This document shows positions 5,560 to 14,673 of a DNA stretch of 52,228 nucleotides, one piece after another. Positions within the stretch are counted from its first letter, which is position 1. Each line of letters begins with the position of its first letter. Position numbers and translations under genes: made by a program. This DNA is from a virus. Location of the stretch: positions 1 through 52,228 of IMG/VR virus record IMGVR_UViG_3300036852_000313; one strand, given 5' to 3'. The notes below the pieces were generated by a model. That model did no database searches and was not told where the DNA came from. It saw only the letters and a program-made list of their open reading frames with translations.

Positions 5560-5747
5560 GGCGTGGTCTCGCCATAGACGCGATTTAGCGCCACGCACAA
5601 TCGCGGTGCGCGTGAACGCGCCTTCGGGTCGCTTTCCTTGCTGGGCGTAGCCGCTACGCGCATTTCGCCGCACACCACAACGTACTGCGACAGATTGATG
5701 CTGTACACAACCCGCCAGGCGTCTGGCGTCGGTGCGAGTGTGATCAT
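5556..5747 (-). CDS. Small hypothetical protein
   Basis: 63 residues from ATG 5747 (MITLAPTPDAWRVVYSINL). Short beta-rich start and basic tail. ATGA overlaps on both sides support it as part of the operon. Unknown function. Confidence 0.6.
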   Translation of the reverse strand: MITLAPTPDAWRVVYSINLSQYVVVCGEMRVAATPSKESDPKARSRAPRLCVALNRVYGETTP

Positions 5748-6634
5748 TGACGAACTTCTCCGGTTTCCAACAGGTGAATGAGGCGCGCTGTCAGGTTTTG
5801 ACGTGCGGCGTTCCATGCGGCGTCTGCTGCGGCGTTCGCTGCGGCGTTCGCTGCGGCGGCCCGTGTGGCGTCCCATGCGGCGTCTCCTGTGGCGTCCCAT
5901 GCGGCGGCCCGTGCGGCGTCTCCTGCGGCGGCCGCTGCGGCGGCGGCGGCCCTTGCGGCGCTCCATGCGGCGTCTGCTGCGGCGGCCCGTGCGGCGTCTC
6001 CTGCGGCGGCCGCTGCGGCGGCGGCGGCCCGTGTGGCGTCCCATGCGGCGTCCCCCCATGCGGCCCGTGCGGCGGCCCGTGCGGCGTCTCCTGCGGCGGC
6101 CGCTGCGGCGGCGGCGGCCCTTGCGGCGTCCCATGCGGCGTCCTCCCATGCGGCCCGTGTGGCGGCCGCTGCGGCGTCCCATGCGGCGTCTCCTGCGGCG
6201 TTAAGGAAGATGTGATTTACCTTGCCTTCCGCGAATGCTTCGATGGCTTCGATGCACTTCCGCATACGGTCGTCGTTCGGACGTTTGCGCTCAAAGAAAG
6301 GCAGCACGTCACGCGCGCAGGATGCGGCGAACAGGTGCACGGTGCGATCGTTCCAATGAGCGCAACGACGGAGCAGCCGAGCCGACGCGACGACAGTTTT
6401 ATTCTTGTCGCGGATGGACTCGCCACGCACTTCAACAATATAGATCGTCGGGCCGAGCCAGGTTATGAGATCGTGCGGTTCGCAAACGTGATAGCCACGC
6501 ACGCAAGGCTTGATGTTATCTAGCCTAGGCATCCACTTACCTGGCCTCTTGCCCGATGGCAGGCACCAGCGACCAGTTCCGCCGTGGTGCGCAGAACCAT
6601 CTTCACCGAGCACTTTGTAAAGTATGTCACTCAT
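5744..6634 (-). CDS. DUF7666-like protein with a long alanine-tryptophan repeat tail
   Basis: The N-terminal ~145 residues (GGTGRWCLPSGKRPGKW, YHVCEPHDLITWLGP, DRTVHLFAASCARDVLPFFE) match a widespread phage/bacterial protein of unknown function. Residues ~150-280 are degenerate short repeats built on AAWDAA/AARAAA, with Trp and Asp at regular spacing; they look like a continuous amphipathic helix or solenoid. The DNA of this tail (about 5800-6200) is a run of GCGGC-rich imperfect repeats, likely to change length by slippage. The start at 6634 overlaps the upstream TGA (ATGA). The opposite-strand open frames here are shadows of the repeat. Confidence 0.75.
   Translation of the reverse strand: MSDILYKVLGEDGSAHHGGTGRWCLPSGKRPGKWMPRLDNIKPCVRGYHVCEPHDLITWLGPTIYIVEVRGESIRDKNKTVVASARLLRRCAHWNDRTVHLFAASCARDVLPFFERKRPNDDRMRKCIEAIEAFAEGKVNHIFLNAAGDAAWDAAAAATRAAWEDAAWDAARAAAAAAAAAGDAARAAARAAWGDAAWDATRAAAAAAAAAGDAARAAAADAAWSAARAAAAAAAAAGDAARAAAWDATGDAAWDATRAAAANAAANAAADAAWNAARQNLTARLIHLLETGEVRQ
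5800..6200. repeat. GC-rich imperfect short-period repeat inside the alanine-rich gene
   Basis: About 400 bases built from variants of GCGGCGTC, GCGGCGGC and GTGGCGTCCCATGCGG. It encodes the AAWDAA-type repeats of the gene at 5744-6634. The period is short and irregular, so this is a coding microsatellite-like array and not a CRISPR or tandem duplication of a gene. Confidence 0.8.
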
Positions 6635-7113
6635 AGCCACGCCTGCCGCAACGCATAGCCGCCGTCCTTGTGCCAGTGCGCCACATAGCCCACCTCATAT
6701 GGACGCTTGCCACCGTTTGTGTGCGGCGTGTAGTCGTAGTCGCCGTTGCTGTGGTCATTGCTTTGGCATCGTTCGCCAACGCACGGTACGCCGTCCGGCC
6801 AGAGCGCGCGTCCCAGCTCATACACGAGCGCGAATCCCATATCCATGCCGCACCCGCCAATCTTGACGCCACCTCGGTCGCGGTCGAAACGCCTGTCGAG
6901 TGCACGCGCGACTGCCCAGCCAATCGCATACGGCACTGTGCGCGTTTCGTCGTGCTCAATGCGCGGCGCACAAATCACTAGCTCAATCGTGCGCTGCATT
7001 CCGCTCCGGCTCACATGGCGCAAGGTCGTATGCACCGTGTCACCAGGCTTGAGCCATTCACGCAACTTCGCTTGCGCTTCCGCGCGCTCGGTCTTGCTCA
7101 CTCTGTCACTCAT
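6631..7113 (-). CDS. Conserved phage hypothetical protein
   Basis: 160 residues. N-terminal charged helix (KTERAEAQAKLREWLKPGD), then a beta-rich part (HVSRSGMQRTIELVI) and a C-terminal HWHKDGGYALRQAWL. I recognise this as a common uncharacterised phage protein with those same anchors; no role is known to me. Preceded by GGAGGAT at a good distance. Confidence 0.75.
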   Translation of the reverse strand: MSDRVSKTERAEAQAKLREWLKPGDTVHTTLRHVSRSGMQRTIELVICAPRIEHDETRTVPYAIGWAVARALDRRFDRDRGGVKIGGCGMDMGFALVYELGRALWPDGVPCVGERCQSNDHSNGDYDYTPHTNGGKRPYEVGYVAHWHKDGGYALRQAWL

Positions 7114-7314
7114 CTATATATCCTCCAAGCTACTCGTTAACTGGTGCATTCGCTCTTGTGCTTCGTTCACCGCATAGCGTGCATCAGATACGCTTGAATA
7201 GCTCGGTTTGCCAACAATGAAATTAGCGATACACGCCAATACTGTTTGCACATACTGCGCATTTCGGCGCATTGCTTCCATGTTAGGTGTTACATACTTG
7301 TCATCGTCACTCAT
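7114..7314 (-). CDS. Small hypothetical protein behind a repeated leader
   Basis: 66 residues (MSDDDKYVTPNMEAMRRNAQ), helical, with no recognised domain. It is the last gene of the series that carries the GCTAGTCCC leader; its ribosome site is TTTGGAGC, about ten bases before the ATG. Confidence 0.65.
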   Translation of the reverse strand: MSDDDKYVTPNMEAMRRNAQYVQTVLACIANFIVGKPSYSSVSDARYAVNEAQERMHQLTSSLEDI

Positions 7315-7349
7315 TGCCGTCGCTCCAAAGGTTTGAGTTTGGGACTAGC
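7315..7349 (-). promoter_or_regulatory. Repeated leader, copy 1
   Basis: Minus-strand GCTAGTCCC, then a CCAAA...TTTGG potential hairpin, then GGAGCGACGGC before the ATG at 7314. The TAG inside the motif is the stop codon of the upstream gene. Confidence 0.6.
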
Positions 7350-7512
7350 CTTTTTGTGCAAACACTGCGGTTGGTACATTACCGTTGAGATACGCGCAGC
7401 GCCTTGCGGCACTTTCGCGGTCTGTGTGGTCTGAATCGCTGTGCCACGCACCGCGTGGATCATAAAAGCCTACTGTCCACAGCTCCGGCTCACTTCGCAC
7501 GTATACCCACAT
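7345..7512 (-). CDS. Small conserved phage protein
   Basis: 55 residues from ATG 7512 to TAG 7345, starting MWVYVRSEPELWTVGFYDP and continuing with a DHTDRESAARRCAYLNG helix. This WTVGFYDP...SDH...EAA...YLNGG layout is a familiar small phage protein of unknown function, likely one beta hairpin plus one helix. GGAGGAT lies upstream of the start. Confidence 0.8.
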   Translation of the reverse strand: MWVYVRSEPELWTVGFYDPRGAWHSDSDHTDRESAARRCAYLNGNVPTAVFAQKG

Positions 7513-7543
7513 CCTTTAATCCTCCAATTGAATGGGGACTAGC
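7513..7543 (-). promoter_or_regulatory. Repeated leader, copy 2
   Basis: GCTAGTCCCC, then CAATTGGAGGATTAAAGG and the ATG at 7512. This copy keeps the 5' motif but has a different ribosome-site segment from the others. Confidence 0.5.
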
Positions 7544-7553
7544 TTAACTGCGC

Positions 7554-7799
7554 TCACTCAATCTGCATCACTATCGTACATGCCGCAATATCGACTGGCC
7601 TGCCCGGCGTATCAAACTCCGCCGCAACTTGTGCGCCGTCCTGAATCACGACGTGACGCGCGCTTGCGTCATAGCGCACACGCGCACGGCACTCGTTTGC
7701 ATAAATCAATGTGCCTGTGCGCCGTCGCGTGCCGTCGTCGTCGAGCAGCGCGAATCGTGCACCGCTCGGTAGCGTCCACAGCTCGACAGTCGCGTTCAT
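7554..7799 (-). CDS. Small beta-rich hypothetical protein
   Basis: 81 residues, mostly predicted beta strands (ELWTLPSGARFALLDDDG). Not recognised. The ATG overlaps the TGA of the SprT-like gene (ATGA). Confidence 0.6.
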   Translation of the reverse strand: MNATVELWTLPSGARFALLDDDGTRRRTGTLIYANECRARVRYDASARHVVIQDGAQVAAEFDTPGRPVDIAACTIVMQIE

Positions 7800-8386
7800 G
7801 TTTCCTTCATGTGCTGGTTATCCTGCGGGCAGATTGGCGCGCCCGGCCCGTCCAACCAGACGCGCGTCACGCGCGCCACGTAACCACAACTCCTACACGT
7901 CACCTTCACGAGTCGCGCGCCCTGTGCTTTCGGCAAACTGTGTGCGTCCAGTGCCGCATGCGGCCACGGCCCAAGCTCAGCGTTTAAACGTTCTAGCACC
8001 GCGCGCAGTTCTGAGCCTGCACACTGCGAGCGCGCTGGGCCAACGCTCAGGCCGATGCGCTCGCACGCGCGCACAAACGCTCGTTTGTGGCCCGTGCCTG
8101 GCGGCATGCACGCGTGCACCATCTCGTGACACAGTGTGTCTAGCGCCGCAATGGCGTCCTCGTGCAGCGGACTCACAAAGATGTGCGGCGCGCCGTCCAT
8201 CGAGTGCGCTCCGGCCCAGCACTGCCCCACCGTGGCGCCACGTTTGCCACGTAGCCCACCACGACTCGGGAACCCGACGCTTACGTGTATGTGCTCTGGC
8301 AGCGCGAGCGTTTCCGCCTCGAAACGTGCGCGCAGCGCCACAATGGCGCGCGTCAACCAGGCTTCGCGTGTGTCACTCATAGACAT
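7796..8386 (-). CDS. SprT-like zinc metalloprotease
   Basis: About 196 residues. Contains the zincin motif in CHEMVHACMPPGTGH and, further on, a C-terminal zinc-ribbon-like part with CRSCG. This is the SprT/Spartan layout: a small zinc protease core followed by a ribbon. Cellular relatives act on DNA-protein crosslinks; phage versions are common but mostly untested. Two ATGs (8386, 8380) are close together; the first is used. Overlaps the end of the upstream gene. Confidence 0.8.
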   Translation of the reverse strand: MSMSDTREAWLTRAIVALRARFEAETLALPEHIHVSVGFPSRGGLRGKRGATVGQCWAGAHSMDGAPHIFVSPLHEDAIAALDTLCHEMVHACMPPGTGHKRAFVRACERIGLSVGPARSQCAGSELRAVLERLNAELGPWPHAALDAHSLPKAQGARLVKVTCRSCGYVARVTRVWLDGPGAPICPQDNQHMKET

Positions 8387-8660
8387 TGCACGCACAACCA
8401 ATCTGCCCGCAATCGCGACAGTATGCACTCGGATTAAGCGGTATCACGTCGTCAGCATCTACGCTGTGCTTCCGGTCGTCTCCAATCATCACGCACACGA
8501 CACGGCCAGTGCGCACTTCGTAGCCAGACCATTCCGTGTCCTCGTCTGGCTCTGTCTCCCAGCCCAGCACATAGAACGCTACGCCGTCGTAGCCACGCAC
8601 GGCGTATGCGTCGTGCGGGAAAGCTTGCTCGTCGGGTTCGTAATGCGTGCGGTTATACAT
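8373..8660 (-). CDS. Small acidic protein with C-terminal Cys cluster
   Basis: 95 residues from ATG 8660 (MYNRTHYEPDEQAFPHDAY), acidic, ending in YCRDCGQIGCACNVYE, a possible metal site. The reading frame is open further upstream, but that part is the leader and ribozyme sequence, and GGAGTGACAGC sits right before this ATG. Unknown function. Confidence 0.65.
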   Translation of the reverse strand: MYNRTHYEPDEQAFPHDAYAVRGYDGVAFYVLGWETEPDEDTEWSGYEVRTGRVVCVMIGDDRKHSVDADDVIPLNPSAYCRDCGQIGCACNVYE

Positions 8661-8693
8661 CGCTGTCACTCCGGTTTGGGTGTCGGGACTAGC
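8661..8693 (-). promoter_or_regulatory. Repeated leader, copy 3
   Basis: GCTAGTCCCGACACCC then CGGAGTGACAGC before the ATG at 8660. Lies directly 3' of the first hammerhead, so it would be near the 5' end of the cleaved downstream RNA. Confidence 0.65.
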
Positions 8694-8705
8694 GTATGGC
8701 TTGCT

Positions 8706-8765
8706 GACCTCATCAGTCGTGGCAGTCACCACGAGACGACGCGTGACTCGCGCGTCGTTTCGGTC
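8706..8765 (-). ncRNA. Type II hammerhead ribozyme, copy 1 (predicted)
   Basis: Read 5'-3' on the minus strand: GACC, GAAA, an 8-bp hairpin (ACGACGCG/CGCGTCGT) ending in GUC, a 6-bp hairpin (TCGTGG/CCACGA, loop TGACTG), the core CTGATGA, then GGTC. GACC pairs with GGTC as open stem II, the first hairpin is stem III closed by the required A-U pair, and the second is stem I. This is the complete hammerhead core in type II (stem II open) order with no mismatch. Predicted cleavage is after the GUC, between 8735 and 8734. Stem II begins on the base after the TAA stop of the gene at 8766-8948. Confidence 0.85.
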
Positions 8766-8948
8766 TTAGACTATAGTTCCCCAATCCGGGTCCAGATCGT
8801 AAGCGCTTACCCAACGACAAGATGCGTCCTCATACTCGACATATGCGCGGTTATGCTCTTCGTCTATCTCCAGCACGACAACAAATGCCGTTACGTCTCC
8901 GTTGTCGTATTCAAGCTCCTGCCCGATGTACATGTCTGAGCATTTCAT
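8766..8948 (-). CDS. Small acidic hypothetical protein
   Basis: 60 residues from ATG 8948 (MKCSDMYIGQELEYDNGDV), beta-rich and acidic. Its TAA stop abuts the first ribozyme, so cleavage would leave its mRNA with a short 3' tail. Upstream in-frame codons belong to the leader and the preceding gene. Confidence 0.65.
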   Translation of the reverse strand: MKCSDMYIGQELEYDNGDVTAFVVVLEIDEEHNRAYVEYEDASCRWVSAYDLDPDWGTIV

Positions 8949-8988
8949 TTGGCCGTCGCTCCGCGCTAGGTTAGCTGTCGGGACTAGC
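8949..8988 (-). promoter_or_regulatory. Repeated leader, copy 4
   Basis: GCTAGTCCCGACAGCTAAC, CTAGC (pairs with the initial GCTAG over 5 bp), then GCGGAGCGACGGC before the ATG at 8948. The TAG in the motif is the stop of the upstream gene. Confidence 0.6.
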
Positions 8989-9232
8989 ATTCTGTGTTTG
9001 ACGCAATGCTGCTCGTTGCATCCATCGCGTAGGCGTTCGCCTCTGCAACCAAGTCCGTTAGTGTCTGTTGTGAGCTGGGATAGAACAGCTCTACGCCCTC
9101 CTCGACAATAACGATGCGTCCGTTCTTGCTCCATATGTCGAGTGTGTTCGGCGTGCCTTGCACTGGCGTGCTTGCCATGTGCCGCCAACCTGACTCTATG
9201 AGCAGGTTTGTGAGTTGCTGGCCTCTGTCCAT
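8984..9232 (-). CDS. Small hypothetical protein
   Basis: 82 residues (MDRGQQLTNLLIESGWRHM), alpha/beta, with an acidic strand IVIVEEGVELF. No family recognised. Has its own leader copy. Confidence 0.6.
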   Translation of the reverse strand: MDRGQQLTNLLIESGWRHMASTPVQGTPNTLDIWSKNGRIVIVEEGVELFYPSSQQTLTDLVAEANAYAMDATSSIASNTEC

Positions 9233-9273
9233 TTGCTGTCACTCCGAGCTAGGGTTAGCCAATCGGGACTAGC
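9233..9273 (-). promoter_or_regulatory. Repeated leader, copy 5
   Basis: GCTAGTCCCGATTGGCTAAC, CTAGC, CTCGGAGTGACAGC, then the ATG at 9232. GCTAG and CTAGC can pair. It starts two bases after the TAA of the upstream gene. Confidence 0.6.
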
Positions 9274-9275
9274 GC

Positions 9276-9509
9276 TTACTCGTACTGCTCATCAATCATC
9301 TTCGCGAGTGCTTCGTCTTTCGTGGCGAATGGGCCGAAAGGTTCGCCGTCTGGCAGGCATCCAGGAAAGCAGGCCCACCAGTACCAGCCAGCTTCGCTGG
9401 GCTCACCATCGTTGTCCAGCTCCAACTCACCACGCCTAGCGTAGAATATCTCTACGTCTGGCAGCGTGTGTGGGTCATTCTCGCGGCTAGGATCGCTGTA
9501 CGCTTGCAT
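9276..9509 (-). CDS. Small acidic hypothetical protein
   Basis: 77 residues from ATG 9509 (MQAYSDPSRENDPHTLPDV). Aromatic centre (EAGWYWWACFPGCLPDGEPF) and a C-terminal GPFATKDEALAKMIDE helix. The aromatic-GPF-T..EA layout is common in small phage proteins of unknown role. Confidence 0.65.
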   Translation of the reverse strand: MQAYSDPSRENDPHTLPDVEIFYARRGELELDNDGEPSEAGWYWWACFPGCLPDGEPFGPFATKDEALAKMIDEQYE

Positions 9510-9540
9510 GCTGTCACTCCGAGTTAGTGTCGGGACTAGC
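9510..9540 (-). promoter_or_regulatory. Repeated leader, copy 6
   Basis: GCTAGTCCCGACACTAAC then TCGGAGTGACAGC before the ATG at 9509. Lies 3' of the second hammerhead, exactly as copy 3 lies 3' of the first. Confidence 0.65.
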
Positions 9541-9552
9541 GTATAACTTGCT

Positions 9553-9613
9553 GGCCTCATCGGCCGCGGCAGTCACCGCGGGACGACGCGCTACGTCGCG
9601 CGCCGTTTCGGCC
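9553..9613 (-). ncRNA. Type II hammerhead ribozyme, copy 2 (predicted, core variant)
   Basis: Same order as copy 1: GGCC, GAAA, a 9-bp hairpin (ACGGCGCGC/GCGCGTCGT with one G-U), GUC, a 6-bp hairpin (CCGCGG/CCGCGG, same TGACTG loop), CCGATGA, GGCC. Compared with copy 1, stem II changes A-U to G-C and stem I changes two U-A pairs to C-G with both sides altered together, which supports an RNA fold. The core reads CCGATGA in place of CTGATGA (U4 to C), so this copy may be slow or inactive. Predicted site between 9582 and 9581. The TAG stop of the upstream gene supplies the first base of stem II. Confidence 0.75.
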
Positions 9614-9822
9614 TATGCGTATGCTGGATCAATGACGCGTTGGATATCCTTAGCACAAGCAAGCGCTGCGAATTGTAACGCGACGTATAGCGAGCGCTCT
9701 GGCGAGCGCGCTGGAAACGCTAGTGCCATACGCCAAAGGCGGTCTGATGTGTGACACAATGCGCGCATTCTCTGCGCCATGCGCCGTTCTTGCTCTATGG
9801 TGTGTTGTGCGTTCGTGTGCAT
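9613..9822 (-). CDS. Small hypothetical protein
   Basis: 69 residues from ATG 9822 (MHTNAQHTIEQERRMAQRM), strongly helical, Arg-rich at the start. Unknown. First gene of the leader-bearing series; its stop overlaps the second ribozyme. Confidence 0.6.
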   Translation of the reverse strand: MHTNAQHTIEQERRMAQRMRALCHTSDRLWRMALAFPARSPERSLYVALQFAALACAKDIQRVIDPAYA

Positions 9823-9863
9823 TTTGCTGTCGCTCCGTAGGGGGTTAGCCAATCGGGACTAGC
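9823..9863 (-). promoter_or_regulatory. Repeated leader, copy 7
   Basis: GCTAGTCCCGATTGGCTAAC then CTACGGAGCGACAGC before the ATG at 9822. The 5' half is identical to copy 5. Confidence 0.6.
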
Positions 9864-9937
9864 GTAAGCACACACCGCGCAGGTTAAACACTGTTGCCCA
9901 TAGATAGTATCGGGTCAGTCCTGCGCCAGTGTATGCC

Positions 9938-10303
9938 TTGCGCTGCAACACATAGCATGATATGTGCCAAGCGCACTAACCGCGCGTTTCGGCCACTTGC
10001 GGTCGCATCGTATCACATTGACACACCGCAACCTGCGACGAATCGTGCAAATTGCGAGAGTGTGCAACGTAGTAGCCAGCTAACGTGCGTTTAGCTGGTT
10101 ACTCGCGTCGTGCTAACCGGCTAGGCGCGTTTATGGTGGTTAGCGTGTCGAAGTGACACGTTTGGTGCTGACCAGCCTGTTGGCGCTGCCCGGCGCTGCC
10201 ACATTGGCGCGCGCGTGCGCCATATTGGCGCGACCCCCACCATGCCCCTTGGCGCTGCGGCGCGCAGAACTACGCGTTCGCGCTAATGCGCGGCATATTT
10301 TTT
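9938..10303 (+). ncRNA. Candidate structured plus-strand non-coding RNA
   Basis: No gene fits here on either strand, yet the plus strand folds into a series of hairpins: 9939-9944/9970-9975 enclosing CACATA/TATGTG (9949-9966); 10018-10026/10060-10067 with one bulge; 10072-10083/10091-10102 (12 bp); 10112-10118/10138-10144; 10144-10149/10155-10160; 10205-10210/10217-10222. The 10072 stem contains a G-U pair and the 10112 stem can be extended by G-U pairs only when read as plus-strand RNA; on the minus strand these become A-C mismatches. An intrinsic terminator follows at 10279-10303. The RNA would be transcribed against the surrounding early genes. No promoter is clear, and no known RNA family is recognised. 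Confidence 0.5.
10279..10303 (+). terminator. Intrinsic terminator, plus strand
   Basis: Stem CGCGC/GCGCG with loop TAAT, followed after GCATA by six T. The T run is on the plus-strand side only, so it would end the candidate RNA and not the leftward early transcripts. Confidence 0.55.
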
Positions 10304-10338
10304 CTGAACGGTCTAGCTCGCTTCGCGCGATGCGGCGT

Positions 10339-10734
10339 TCATTTCGCATATCTCCACGGCAGCCCTGTCCAGCGCACAAGCAAGGTGCGCGCACCGAGTT
10401 CGCCGCCGTAGCGCAAACCGCGCTCCGCGCTCCAAAACAGCACCGAGTCCTCGACGAGCACGTAGATGCCGACGATGGAGTCGCGCTGCACGCCGCTATC
10501 TTGTGCTCTGGTCCACACAATCCAATCAGTAAACGTGCTGTCTGAACGCAACTCGATGGCGCCAGCAACAACCGCGCTTCCGTCAGCGCCGAATTTCCAC
10601 GGCAGCGTGTCGCCCGCGACGTTGCGCAGCGTCCATGTACCTAGCGCGCTAGCGTCTGGCGCCTGATTGTAGCACCCAGCGGCGCACGAGAGCATGAACG
10701 CAAGGCTCGTGGTGCAGCGAGCTGCGCCGATCAC
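10339..10734 (-). CDS. Putative lipoprotein with a lipocalin-like beta domain
   Basis: 131 residues from a GTG at 10734 that overlaps the upstream TGA (GTGA). The N-terminus has a hydrophobic stretch ending in MLSCAAGC, a plausible lipobox Cys. The mature part (GTWTLRNVAGDTLPW, FTDWIVWTRAQDSG, ending LPWRYAK) is a small beta-rich domain. The GTWTL-VNG-LP start and W.YRK-like end remind me of many secreted proteins of Gemmatimonadota, which is my main hint about the host. A surface lipoprotein made early could act in superinfection exclusion; this is inference. Confidence 0.65.
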   Translation of the reverse strand: MIGAARCTTSLAFMLSCAAGCYNQAPDASALGTWTLRNVAGDTLPWKFGADGSAVVAGAIELRSDSTFTDWIVWTRAQDSGVQRDSIVGIYVLVEDSVLFWSAERGLRYGGELGARTLLVRWTGLPWRYAK

Positions 10735-10883
10735 TTCGCCTTCTTGCGTTTGCGTGGTTTTCGTGCTTTGCCAGCGACATGCAACGCAATGGCGACAGAC
10801 TGTTTTTGCGCGTAACCGCTGCGTTGCAGCTCGGCGATGTTCTCGCCAATGGTTTTGCGGGACTTGCCGCGTTTCAGTGGCAC
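10731..10883 (-). CDS. Small basic phage protein (DUF6496-like)
   Basis: 50 residues from GTG 10883: PLKRGKSRKTIGENIAELQR, then GYAQKQSVAIALHVAGKA and a Lys/Arg tail. This PLKxGKSxKTIxxNI...QKQAVAIAL pattern is a widespread short phage protein of unknown function. Confidence 0.8.
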   Translation of the reverse strand: MPLKRGKSRKTIGENIAELQRSGYAQKQSVAIALHVAGKARKPRKRKKAK

Positions 10884-10885
10884 AG

Positions 10886-11110
10886 CTATGGCCTCGCGCG
10901 CGCGAGCTGCTCGCGGATGTCGAGTTCGCAGCGCCCGCTCGCTGGGCGATCAAGCTCAACATACACACGATCTCCGGCGCGCCCAGGCAGCACGTAATGT
11001 GTGATGCATGGCAGCAGCAACGGCTCCGGCGCGCGCTGGCGCGCAGACGCCGCTGCCGCAAGCGCGAGCAGCGCCACGACGACAAGCCGTACCACGCCGA
11101 TGTATGTCAT
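10886..11110 (-). CDS. Small secreted or membrane-anchored protein
   Basis: 74 residues from ATG 11110. Residues 5-23 are hydrophobic and end in AAAASA, a good signal peptide with a signal peptidase I site; the rest is a short charged domain. Position near a holin-like gene could suggest a spanin component, but no lipobox or proline-rich segment is present, so I leave it unnamed. Confidence 0.6.
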   Translation of the reverse strand: MTYIGVVRLVVVALLALAAAASARQRAPEPLLLPCITHYVLPGRAGDRVYVELDRPASGRCELDIREQLARARP

Positions 11111-13449: not shown

Positions 13450-14499
13450 TCAAGCCAATCGCGCAAGTTCGCGCGCTAAATGTGTCGCAACGCGCTCCGC
13501 CGCCCGCCCGCCGCCAAAGATTTGCGTCGGTTTGCGTGGAATCAGTTGCGCCGCAAGTGTAGTCACTGCATCTTGCGCGCCAGCCGCTGTTGGAGCGAAC
13601 AGGCGCGCGATGCCTGCATGCTCAGCCTCTGGACGGTCGTTCGCGACGCGCAAAATCGCGGTCGGCACGCCGAGCGCCGCCGCTTCCTCGACCAGTCCGC
13701 CCGAGTCCGTCAGTACACCGCGCGCTTCCGCAAGCGTTTGCAACATCGTGGTGTGCGCCAACGGTGGGCACAGCACGAAATTCGTCGGTATACGCAGTGT
13801 GCTGAGCAGTGGGTGCATGCCAGGATGCACGGGCCAAAACGCGCGAATGGGCGCTGCGCCAATTGCGTCACACAAACCTTGTAGCATTGCTGGGGCATCG
13901 CTGCGGGTGCGCATTTCACGTCGATGCAGCGTCACCAGCAGTACGTCGTTCGCTTCCGCACACGGGTGCACGTCGGTATAGTGTAGCGCGTCGATTCCCG
14001 TGTTGCCGGTCACGATACTCTCTAAGCGTTCGCTTGCGAGATTGTGAAACGCGTGCTCGGTCGGCGCATATCGCCACGTCGCCATTCGGTCGATTGCAAC
14101 GCGAATGATTTCCTCCGGCCACGGATCGGACTCGCTGCCGCTCCGTACGCCCGCCTCAACATGCGCAACCGGAATTCCGGCCTCGCGCGCGCACAACGCA
14201 CCCACCATAGCGGACATGGTGTCACCCTGTACCAGCACACTGCGCGGGCGGTGTGCCGCGAGATACGCTGTGAGCGCGCGGTGGGCGCGCGCCATAAATC
14301 GCATGATGCTGCCGTCCGATGCTACGTCAAGCGTTACGAAGCGGCCAAGCCGCATCAGCAGCGCGTCATCGACCAGCGACTTGTGTTGGCCTGTGGCAAG
14401 CGCTACAGTTGCTACGCCCGCCGCACGCAACGCCTCGATCACCGGCACGGTCTTGATGGCGTCTGGCCGCGTTCCGAACACGCAAAGTACGTCTGTCAT
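13450..14499 (-). CDS. wecB: UDP-N-acetylglucosamine 2-epimerase
   Basis: 349 residues, the usual length for this enzyme, which interconverts UDP-GlcNAc and UDP-ManNAc. All the family landmarks are present: GTRPDAIK, VQGDTMS, HVEAGVRSG, WPEEIIR, LHRREM, TDSGGLVEEA and NDRPEAEHAG. It lies in the early arm, away from the sugar genes in the late arm, and could supply a ManNAc-type precursor to them or alter host surface glycans. GGAG precedes the ATG at 14499. Confidence 0.9.
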   Translation of the reverse strand: MTDVLCVFGTRPDAIKTVPVIEALRAAGVATVALATGQHKSLVDDALLMRLGRFVTLDVASDGSIMRFMARAHRALTAYLAAHRPRSVLVQGDTMSAMVGALCAREAGIPVAHVEAGVRSGSESDPWPEEIIRVAIDRMATWRYAPTEHAFHNLASERLESIVTGNTGIDALHYTDVHPCAEANDVLLVTLHRREMRTRSDAPAMLQGLCDAIGAAPIRAFWPVHPGMHPLLSTLRIPTNFVLCPPLAHTTMLQTLAEARGVLTDSGGLVEEAAALGVPTAILRVANDRPEAEHAGIARLFAPTAAGAQDAVTTLAAQLIPRKPTQIFGGGRAAERVATHLARELARLA

Positions 14500-14673
14500 G
14501 TGCACTACTCCAGCTAGTTTTTCTCAGCTTTCTCAGTGAGAACTGAGGTACATATTGAGATAATTACCTGAGAATCATGATAAAAATTTCTCGATGTCGT
14601 TATGCCGCAGCGACTTACGCAAAAATTTATCATGAGAATTTCATGCGAATTTCTCATCGGCCCCTTTTTCTCA
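14500..14673. other. AT-rich iteron-like region, candidate replication origin
   Basis: A non-coding gap that is strikingly AT-rich for this genome. TTCTCA or its complement TGAGAA occurs exactly seven times in 153 bases (14521, 14530, 14537, 14569, 14633, 14651, 14668), with a near copy at 14588. TCATGATAAAAATTT near 14576 and AAAAATTTATCATGA near 14621 form an imperfect inverted repeat. It abuts the end of the RepA-type helicase gene. Iterons plus an AT-rich unwinding zone beside a helicase gene suggest an origin; a regulatory region for the genes downstream is the alternative. Confidence 0.55.

Follow-up and report, generated by a model that had tools for sequence, protein, structure and literature searches.

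The closest described counterparts of the elements reported here are the type II hammerheads that Perreault et al. (2011; PMC3088659) described in bacteria and prophages and that Rfam represents as RF02276. Bacterial type II hammerheads are as frequent as types I and III (PMC3088659), and the statement in an earlier note on this DNA that type II is the rarer class was therefore not upheld. In prophages, single genes are flanked by tandem type II arrays that cleave both in vitro and in E. coli, and ardA was recorded downstream of such ribozymes by Perreault et al.; four of 18 consensus hammerheads did not cleave when assayed in the same study (PMC3088659). The ardA arrays of Agrobacterium tumefaciens and Legionella prophages consist of type II ribozymes that flank single small early genes (PMC3088659), as is also the case at the locus described below. 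As in those arrays, several of the genes that follow the phage ribozymes found here belong to anti-restriction families, whereas the small genes adjoining the ribozymes at our locus match no known family. The HHphage hammerhead of haloviruses HF1 and HF2 is likewise located upstream of an early phage gene, but it has a variant core, belongs to an archaeal virus and precedes a helicase gene by 13 nt (PMC3088659).

We analyzed a 52,228-nt stretch of DNA of a tailed phage (hereafter, the window) and found that it carries two type II hammerheads, designated HHR1 and HHR2. The two copies are a real type II pair and a further example of an already described element; both the kind of element and its arrangement were reported by Perreault et al. 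(2011; PMC3088659). The permutation, the core letters and the GUC triplet are the same as in the published type II ribozymes, and so is the setting, with tandem copies between small genes of a phage operon. The window copies differ in belonging to a subclass with a 4-bp stem II followed by an A and with no pseudoknot signal. The points worth keeping are a stop-codon placement rule, a subclass that scores below the Rfam cut-off, a recurrent U4C core and a set of Streptomyces phages that could serve as a test system.

Structure of the two ribozymes

HHR1 (8706..8765, minus strand) was recognized as a complete type II hammerhead, with the core CUGAUGA / GAAA / GUC, from its sequence, its fold and its fit to covariance models. 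The earlier note had described exactly this element, free of mismatches, and the sequence, RNAfold and a newly built covariance model (R1, see below) all bore this out. Read along the minus strand from 8765 to 8706, its order is GACC-GAAA-CGACGCG-(7)-CGCGTCGTC-TCGTGG-(6)-CCACGA-CTGATGA-GGTC. Stem II, which pairs GACC (8765-8762) with GGTC (8709-8706) in both the sequence and RNAfold, has no loop, and this defines the ribozyme as type II. The GAAA box (8761-8758) and the core CTGATGA (8716-8710) were read directly from the sequence, while the two closed hairpins were seen both by eye and by RNAfold. The stem III hairpin (8758-8736) has 8 bp formed by ACGACGCG (8758-8751) and CGCGTCGT (8743-8736), with an A-U closing pair and a 7-nt loop (8750-8744). 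The stem I hairpin (8734-8717) has 6 bp, or 7 when a U.G pair is counted, formed by TCGTGG (8734-8729) and CCACGA (8722-8717) around the loop TGACTG (8728-8723). The core is complete (C3 U4 G5 A6 N7 G8 A9, G12 A13 A14, the A15.1-U16.1 pair and H17), and the minimum-energy and centroid folds of RNAfold are identical to the motif assignment. Judging from where the GUC triplet falls within the core, cleavage is predicted between C8735 (C17) and U8734 (1.1), in agreement with the site proposed earlier. The A at 8705, which adjoins stem II, probably makes a tertiary contact with the U of loop I (8728).

The gene upstream of HHR1 (8766..8948, minus; 60 aa, pI 4.05) ends in a TAA at 8768-8766, so that HHR1 starts on the base after a stop codon, as had been claimed. 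The gene downstream (8373..8660, minus; 95 aa, pI 4.33) is preceded by a Shine-Dalgarno sequence (GGAG, 8672-8669). The placement of HHR1 between two small genes in an operon is supported.

Missing from the earlier note was a second copy, HHR2 (9553..9613, minus strand), which also sits at a stop codon and before the same leader sequence. It was read by eye first and then recovered by a descriptor scan. HHR2 has the core CCGAUGA, with C4 in place of U4 (U4C), and a GGCC/GGCC stem II; the remainder of the required core is present, and its cut is predicted, again from sequence, between 9582 and 9581. The G of the TAG stop codon of the upstream gene (9613..9822, minus; 69 aa) is the first base of HHR2, and the downstream gene (9276..9509, minus) encodes 77 aa with a pI of 4.05. 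Both copies lie inside an intergenic gap and share the strand of the genes on either side, and in both the minimum-energy and centroid folds consist of an open stem II with loop-closed stems I and III. Neither the type II scanner nor model R1 found a further hammerhead with a U4 or C4 core in the 52-kb window.

Comparison of the copies showed that four stem pairs differ and that none is broken. Three of the changes from HHR1 to HHR2 are compensatory (II.3, A-U to G-C; I.1, U-A to C-G; I.4, U-A to C-G), and the fourth converts the A-U at III.4 to G.U. Since the plus-strand equivalent of this G.U would be an A.C mismatch, the structure is kept on the minus strand, which bears the genes. The two copies share a module made of the ribozyme and the same leader. 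Such sharing of a whole ribozyme-plus-leader module, together with the core change in HHR2, would also be expected if a leader cassette had moved or been duplicated and had left inactive relics; given the preservation of pairing at every stem difference, the perfect core of HHR1 and the recurrence of U4C with full stems in other phages, we regard this explanation as very unlikely.

Among the matches listed that have full stems, those with a GGCC/GGCC stem II comprised 10 C4 and 86 U4 distinct motifs, while those with GACC/GGTC comprised one C4 and 70 U4. At least 11 full-stem type II hammerheads with U4C were observed (viral loci L125, L127, L143, L173, L183, L204, L211, L221 and L240); the U4C relatives mostly have a GGCC stem II, and many of them lack the A that follows it. 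In a viroid hammerhead, as summarized in PMC3088659 (citing Ambros and Flores, 1998), the U4C change makes the ribozyme considerably less active in vitro but leaves activity that is sufficient in vivo. HHR2 carries the same core change, although it differs from the viroid element in its type II permutation and in its occurrence in a DNA phage. By analogy with the viroid ribozyme, HHR2 is probably active but slower than the U4 form.

A phage subclass below the Rfam cut-off

A whole-window Rfam scan at curated cut-offs returned no match. The covariance check suggested by the earlier note gave a divided result: RF02276 did find HHR1, with an E-value of 9.4e-5 genome-wide and 0.0023 over 301 bases x 4227 families, but its score of 26.1 bits lay below the gathering cut-off of 37. 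A strict descriptor (exact core, stem II of at least 3 bp, stems I and III of at least 5 bp) matched only once in 11,645 Markov-shuffled windows, indicating that HHR1 is not a product of chance. A covariance model (R1) was also built from 55 phage relatives with both window copies left out; it assigned 58.6 bits (E 2.8e-14) to HHR1 and 48.7 bits (E 1.8e-11) to HHR2. The calibration of these values is rough, and in most of the training sequences the letters of stem II and of the core had been set by the search pattern. HHR1 and HHR2 were the only elements that R1 found, the third-best match in 52 kb having an E-value of 1.6. An accidental resemblance to the hammerhead consensus, for which the sub-threshold Rfam score is the argument, is thus already refuted by the shuffled windows, the R1 E-value for HHR1 and the presence of two related copies in the window, and we consider its probability negligible.

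The low Rfam score was found to be a general property of these elements. No hammerhead match was obtained at the Rfam cut-off in 18 viral loci that contain such motifs, and a more permissive Rfam search of eight loci gave 26.7-34.6 bits for the members listed. The phage relatives with a perfect core that were tested with RF02276 scored 26-35 bits or less, all under 37. The Rfam cut-off of 37 misses the subclass with a 4-bp stem II as a whole; since perfect phage type II hammerheads score equally low, the score of HHR1 reflects the model and not the motif, and does not refute it.

Relatives were collected by searching viral contigs with the pattern GACCGAAAC(26-56)CTGATGAGGTC, which leaves stems I and III unconstrained. 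The pattern occurred in at least 119 stretches of viral DNA, and both unconstrained stems reached at least 4 bp in 70 of 73 distinct viral matches (among the matches listed). The same pattern had 17 matches in 257 Gb of genomes from bacteria and archaea, and the stems were present in only four of these, so that the form with a 4-bp stem II belongs mainly to phages. Across 93 relatives among the matches listed, stems I and III stay paired by means of several pair types. Within this same set, the 4-bp stem II is followed by an A in 88 of 93, loop I opens with a U after a 6-bp stem I in 92 of 93, and an A occurs two bases past the loop I U in 65 of 93; HHR1 and HHR2 possess all three features.

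A pseudoknot between loop I and the tail is present in about 40% of hammerheads and is therefore not a defining feature (PMC3088659). Among 95 examples, complementarity between loop I and the tail was 2.69, compared to 2.73 for shuffled tails (sd 0.08), and the longest contiguous pairing with the tail in the window was 3. One candidate pairing in the window, UG(A)CUG x CAGCA with a bulge, would cost stem II one base. As the complementarity of loop I to the tail does not exceed that of shuffles, the subclass appears to lack the pseudoknot seen in the type II consensus as published; we infer that a U-A contact from loop I to the tail likely replaces it.

Leader repeats and neighboring genes

The repeated leader that had been noticed beside HHR1 is real. 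The sequence GCTAGTCC occurs seven times between 7342 and 9863, always on the minus strand; the copies have the consensus GCTAGTCCC...GGAGyGACrGC-ATG, and each precedes a small gene. A ribozyme precedes only two of the seven leaders, and those two have a shorter spacer in common: the copy after HHR1 (GCTAGTCCCGAC...GGAGTGACAGC; 8661..8693, minus) and the copy after HHR2 (9510..9540, minus). Leader matches were absent from the viral contigs, the leader copies folded no better than shuffles, and scans of 7000-11000 for promoters and terminators remained at or near chance level.

Between the two ribozymes lies a small gene (8984..9232, minus; 82 aa, pI 4.31) that has its own leader but no ribozyme of its own. 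None of the five small genes around HHR1 and HHR2 matched PHROG or Pfam, and four of them encode acidic proteins (pI 4.0-4.3). A gene for an SprT-like metalloprotease (7796..8380, minus; phrog_6361, E 1.1e-36) overlaps the end of the 95-aa gene that follows HHR1, and its product is 45% identical to annotated SprT-like proteases. Among 75 non-redundant genes located directly 3' of phage type II hammerheads, a handful belong to anti-restriction families and one to phrog_6361. It is a guess that the small genes of the window are early counter-defense genes.

Other features of the window were recorded in passing. A 298-aa protein (5744-6640, minus) contains many AWDAARAAA-type repeats, and a gene for a UDP-N-acetylglucosamine 2-epimerase (13450-14505, minus; PF02350, E 3.1e-62) lies inside the early arm. 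The DNA polymerase gene (phrog_17; 1-1999, minus) covers 485-828 of the 1445 profile positions, and this partial coverage beside the end of the record indicates that the gene is probably cut or broken.

No close phage relatives were found in the collections by megablast, by the SprT-like protein or the PDDEXK nuclease, by the leader, or by the letters common to both ribozyme copies. A TerL search yielded three relatives with 55-73% identity, on contigs of 4.7-7.1 kb that start inside the terminase gene and stop short of the early region.

Stop-codon placement and probable intercistronic cleavage

We compiled 197 distinct type II hammerheads among the matches listed, the two window copies included, of which 186 had an ORF of at least 50 aa ending nearby; ORFs around the relatives were called by a simple script rather than by a gene finder. 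Most of the 197 among the matches listed lie in a gap between genes on the same strand, and in the Streptomyces phages Daudau, Tefunt and Spernnie, 22 of 27 type II hammerheads occupy gaps between annotated genes. Among the matches listed, the upstream stop codon fell at -3 to +6 nt from the start of the ribozyme in 128 of the 186, compared to 46 of 1021 positions drawn at random from these loci (4.5%), and the commonest gaps were -1 (44 cases) and 0 (26 cases). The gaps in the window are 0 for HHR1 and -1 for HHR2. The next start codon with a Shine-Dalgarno sequence mostly lay 15-40 nt past stem II in the relatives among the matches listed; the corresponding distance in the window is 43-45 nt because of the intervening leader. 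The abutment on stop codons may in part reflect the compactness of phage genomes. To our knowledge, the purpose of phage hammerheads has been an open question since 2011. A placement rule that applies to about two thirds of the 186 (among the matches listed) makes the idea of mRNA separation directly testable.

The explanation that we favor, and hold with considerable confidence, is that intercistronic self-cleavage of an early polycistronic mRNA produces separate, hairpin-ended messages that can be translated and decay independently. Each ribozyme starts where one small gene has its stop codon and ends ~45 nt before the next start codon. The nascent RNA would fold around the open 4-bp stem II and cut itself after C17 (8735^8734 in HHR1; 9582^9581 in HHR2), and the type II permutation would put this cut at the junction of the closed stem III and stem I hairpins. 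The upstream mRNA would then end ~30 nt past its stop codon in the stem III hairpin with a 2',3'-cyclic phosphate, and the downstream mRNA would open with the stem I hairpin, which would carry a 5'-OH, 72-74 nt ahead of its start codon. As the halves would be held together only by the 4-bp stem II and the loop-tail contact, the products should separate, which would make the cut one-way. Neighboring genes would thereby be placed on separate mRNAs with hairpin-protected ends, allowing independent translation and decay. Cleavage and end chemistry are here assigned to HHR1 and HHR2 by analogy with the hammerhead family, and protection by the hairpins with independent decay is what we ourselves infer. 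The earlier proposal that HHR1 processes mRNA between genes fits both the placement of the relatives and the published cleavage of similar arrays, with cleavage at this locus being the presumptive part.

The proximity to stop codons also raises the question of how translation might affect the ribozymes. A ribosome terminating at an abutting stop codon would, judging from known ribosome footprints, cover both the GAAA box and the first strand of stem II. Terminating ribosomes could accordingly hold the ribozyme open, and their departure would permit folding, cutting and the release of hairpin-ended mRNAs. We view such translation-coupled cutting as unlikely; if it were true, the subclass with a 4-bp stem II would constitute a widespread, under-annotated phage mRNA-processing system that lies largely below the Rfam cut-off. 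A related proposal, in which active, translation-gated hammerheads lower or time expression instead of separating messages constitutively, appears to us likewise unlikely. The overlap of a terminating ribosome with stem II and GAAA, expected from gaps of 0 and -1 here and from stops close by in most relatives, would suit a switch of this kind, and after a cut in the 5' UTR the downstream gene would be severed from the promoter-proximal part of the transcript and left open to decay. Compact gene packing gives the same geometry, however, and the minimum-energy folds show no regulatory alternative, nor is any ligand or effector indicated.

The presence of two copies flanking a block of three genes allows a different outcome, in which HHR1 and HHR2 excise an 847-nt RNA (9581 to 8735) that becomes circular when its 5'-OH and 2',3'-cyclic phosphate termini are sealed, either by a ligase or through the back-reaction of the hammerhead. 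By eye, the leftover halves could pair as a stem II (GACC with GGCC) in three of four positions, but the ends would then be joined by this short stem alone. When Perreault et al. searched the products of phage hammerhead arrays for spliced or circular RNAs, they detected neither (PMC3088659). Most relatives, moreover, are single-copy, two or more hammerheads being present on 23 of 158 locus strands (among the matches listed), although many of the fragments are short. We therefore consider a circular product extremely improbable, and retain intercistronic cleavage into separate messages as the preferred explanation.

Dense arrays were observed in some viral contigs. Ten distinct type II hammerheads lie between consecutive genes in locus L127 (174-4009, minus), six in L036 (7234-11141) and four in L048 (3333-6295). 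The Streptomyces phages Daudau, Tefunt and Spernnie (L261, L262 and L263) contain 8-10 type II hammerheads per genome, within one gene cluster, and none of these is shown in the annotation tables of the three phages. In contrast to the window subclass, 24 of the Streptomyces-phage hammerheads pass the Rfam cut-off. A common phage subclass is thus hidden by the Rfam cut-off, and cultured Streptomyces phages carry 8-10 unannotated hammerheads each. On one other viral contig, a Twister-P5 ribozyme (L107, 189-264, minus) was found together with a type II hammerhead.
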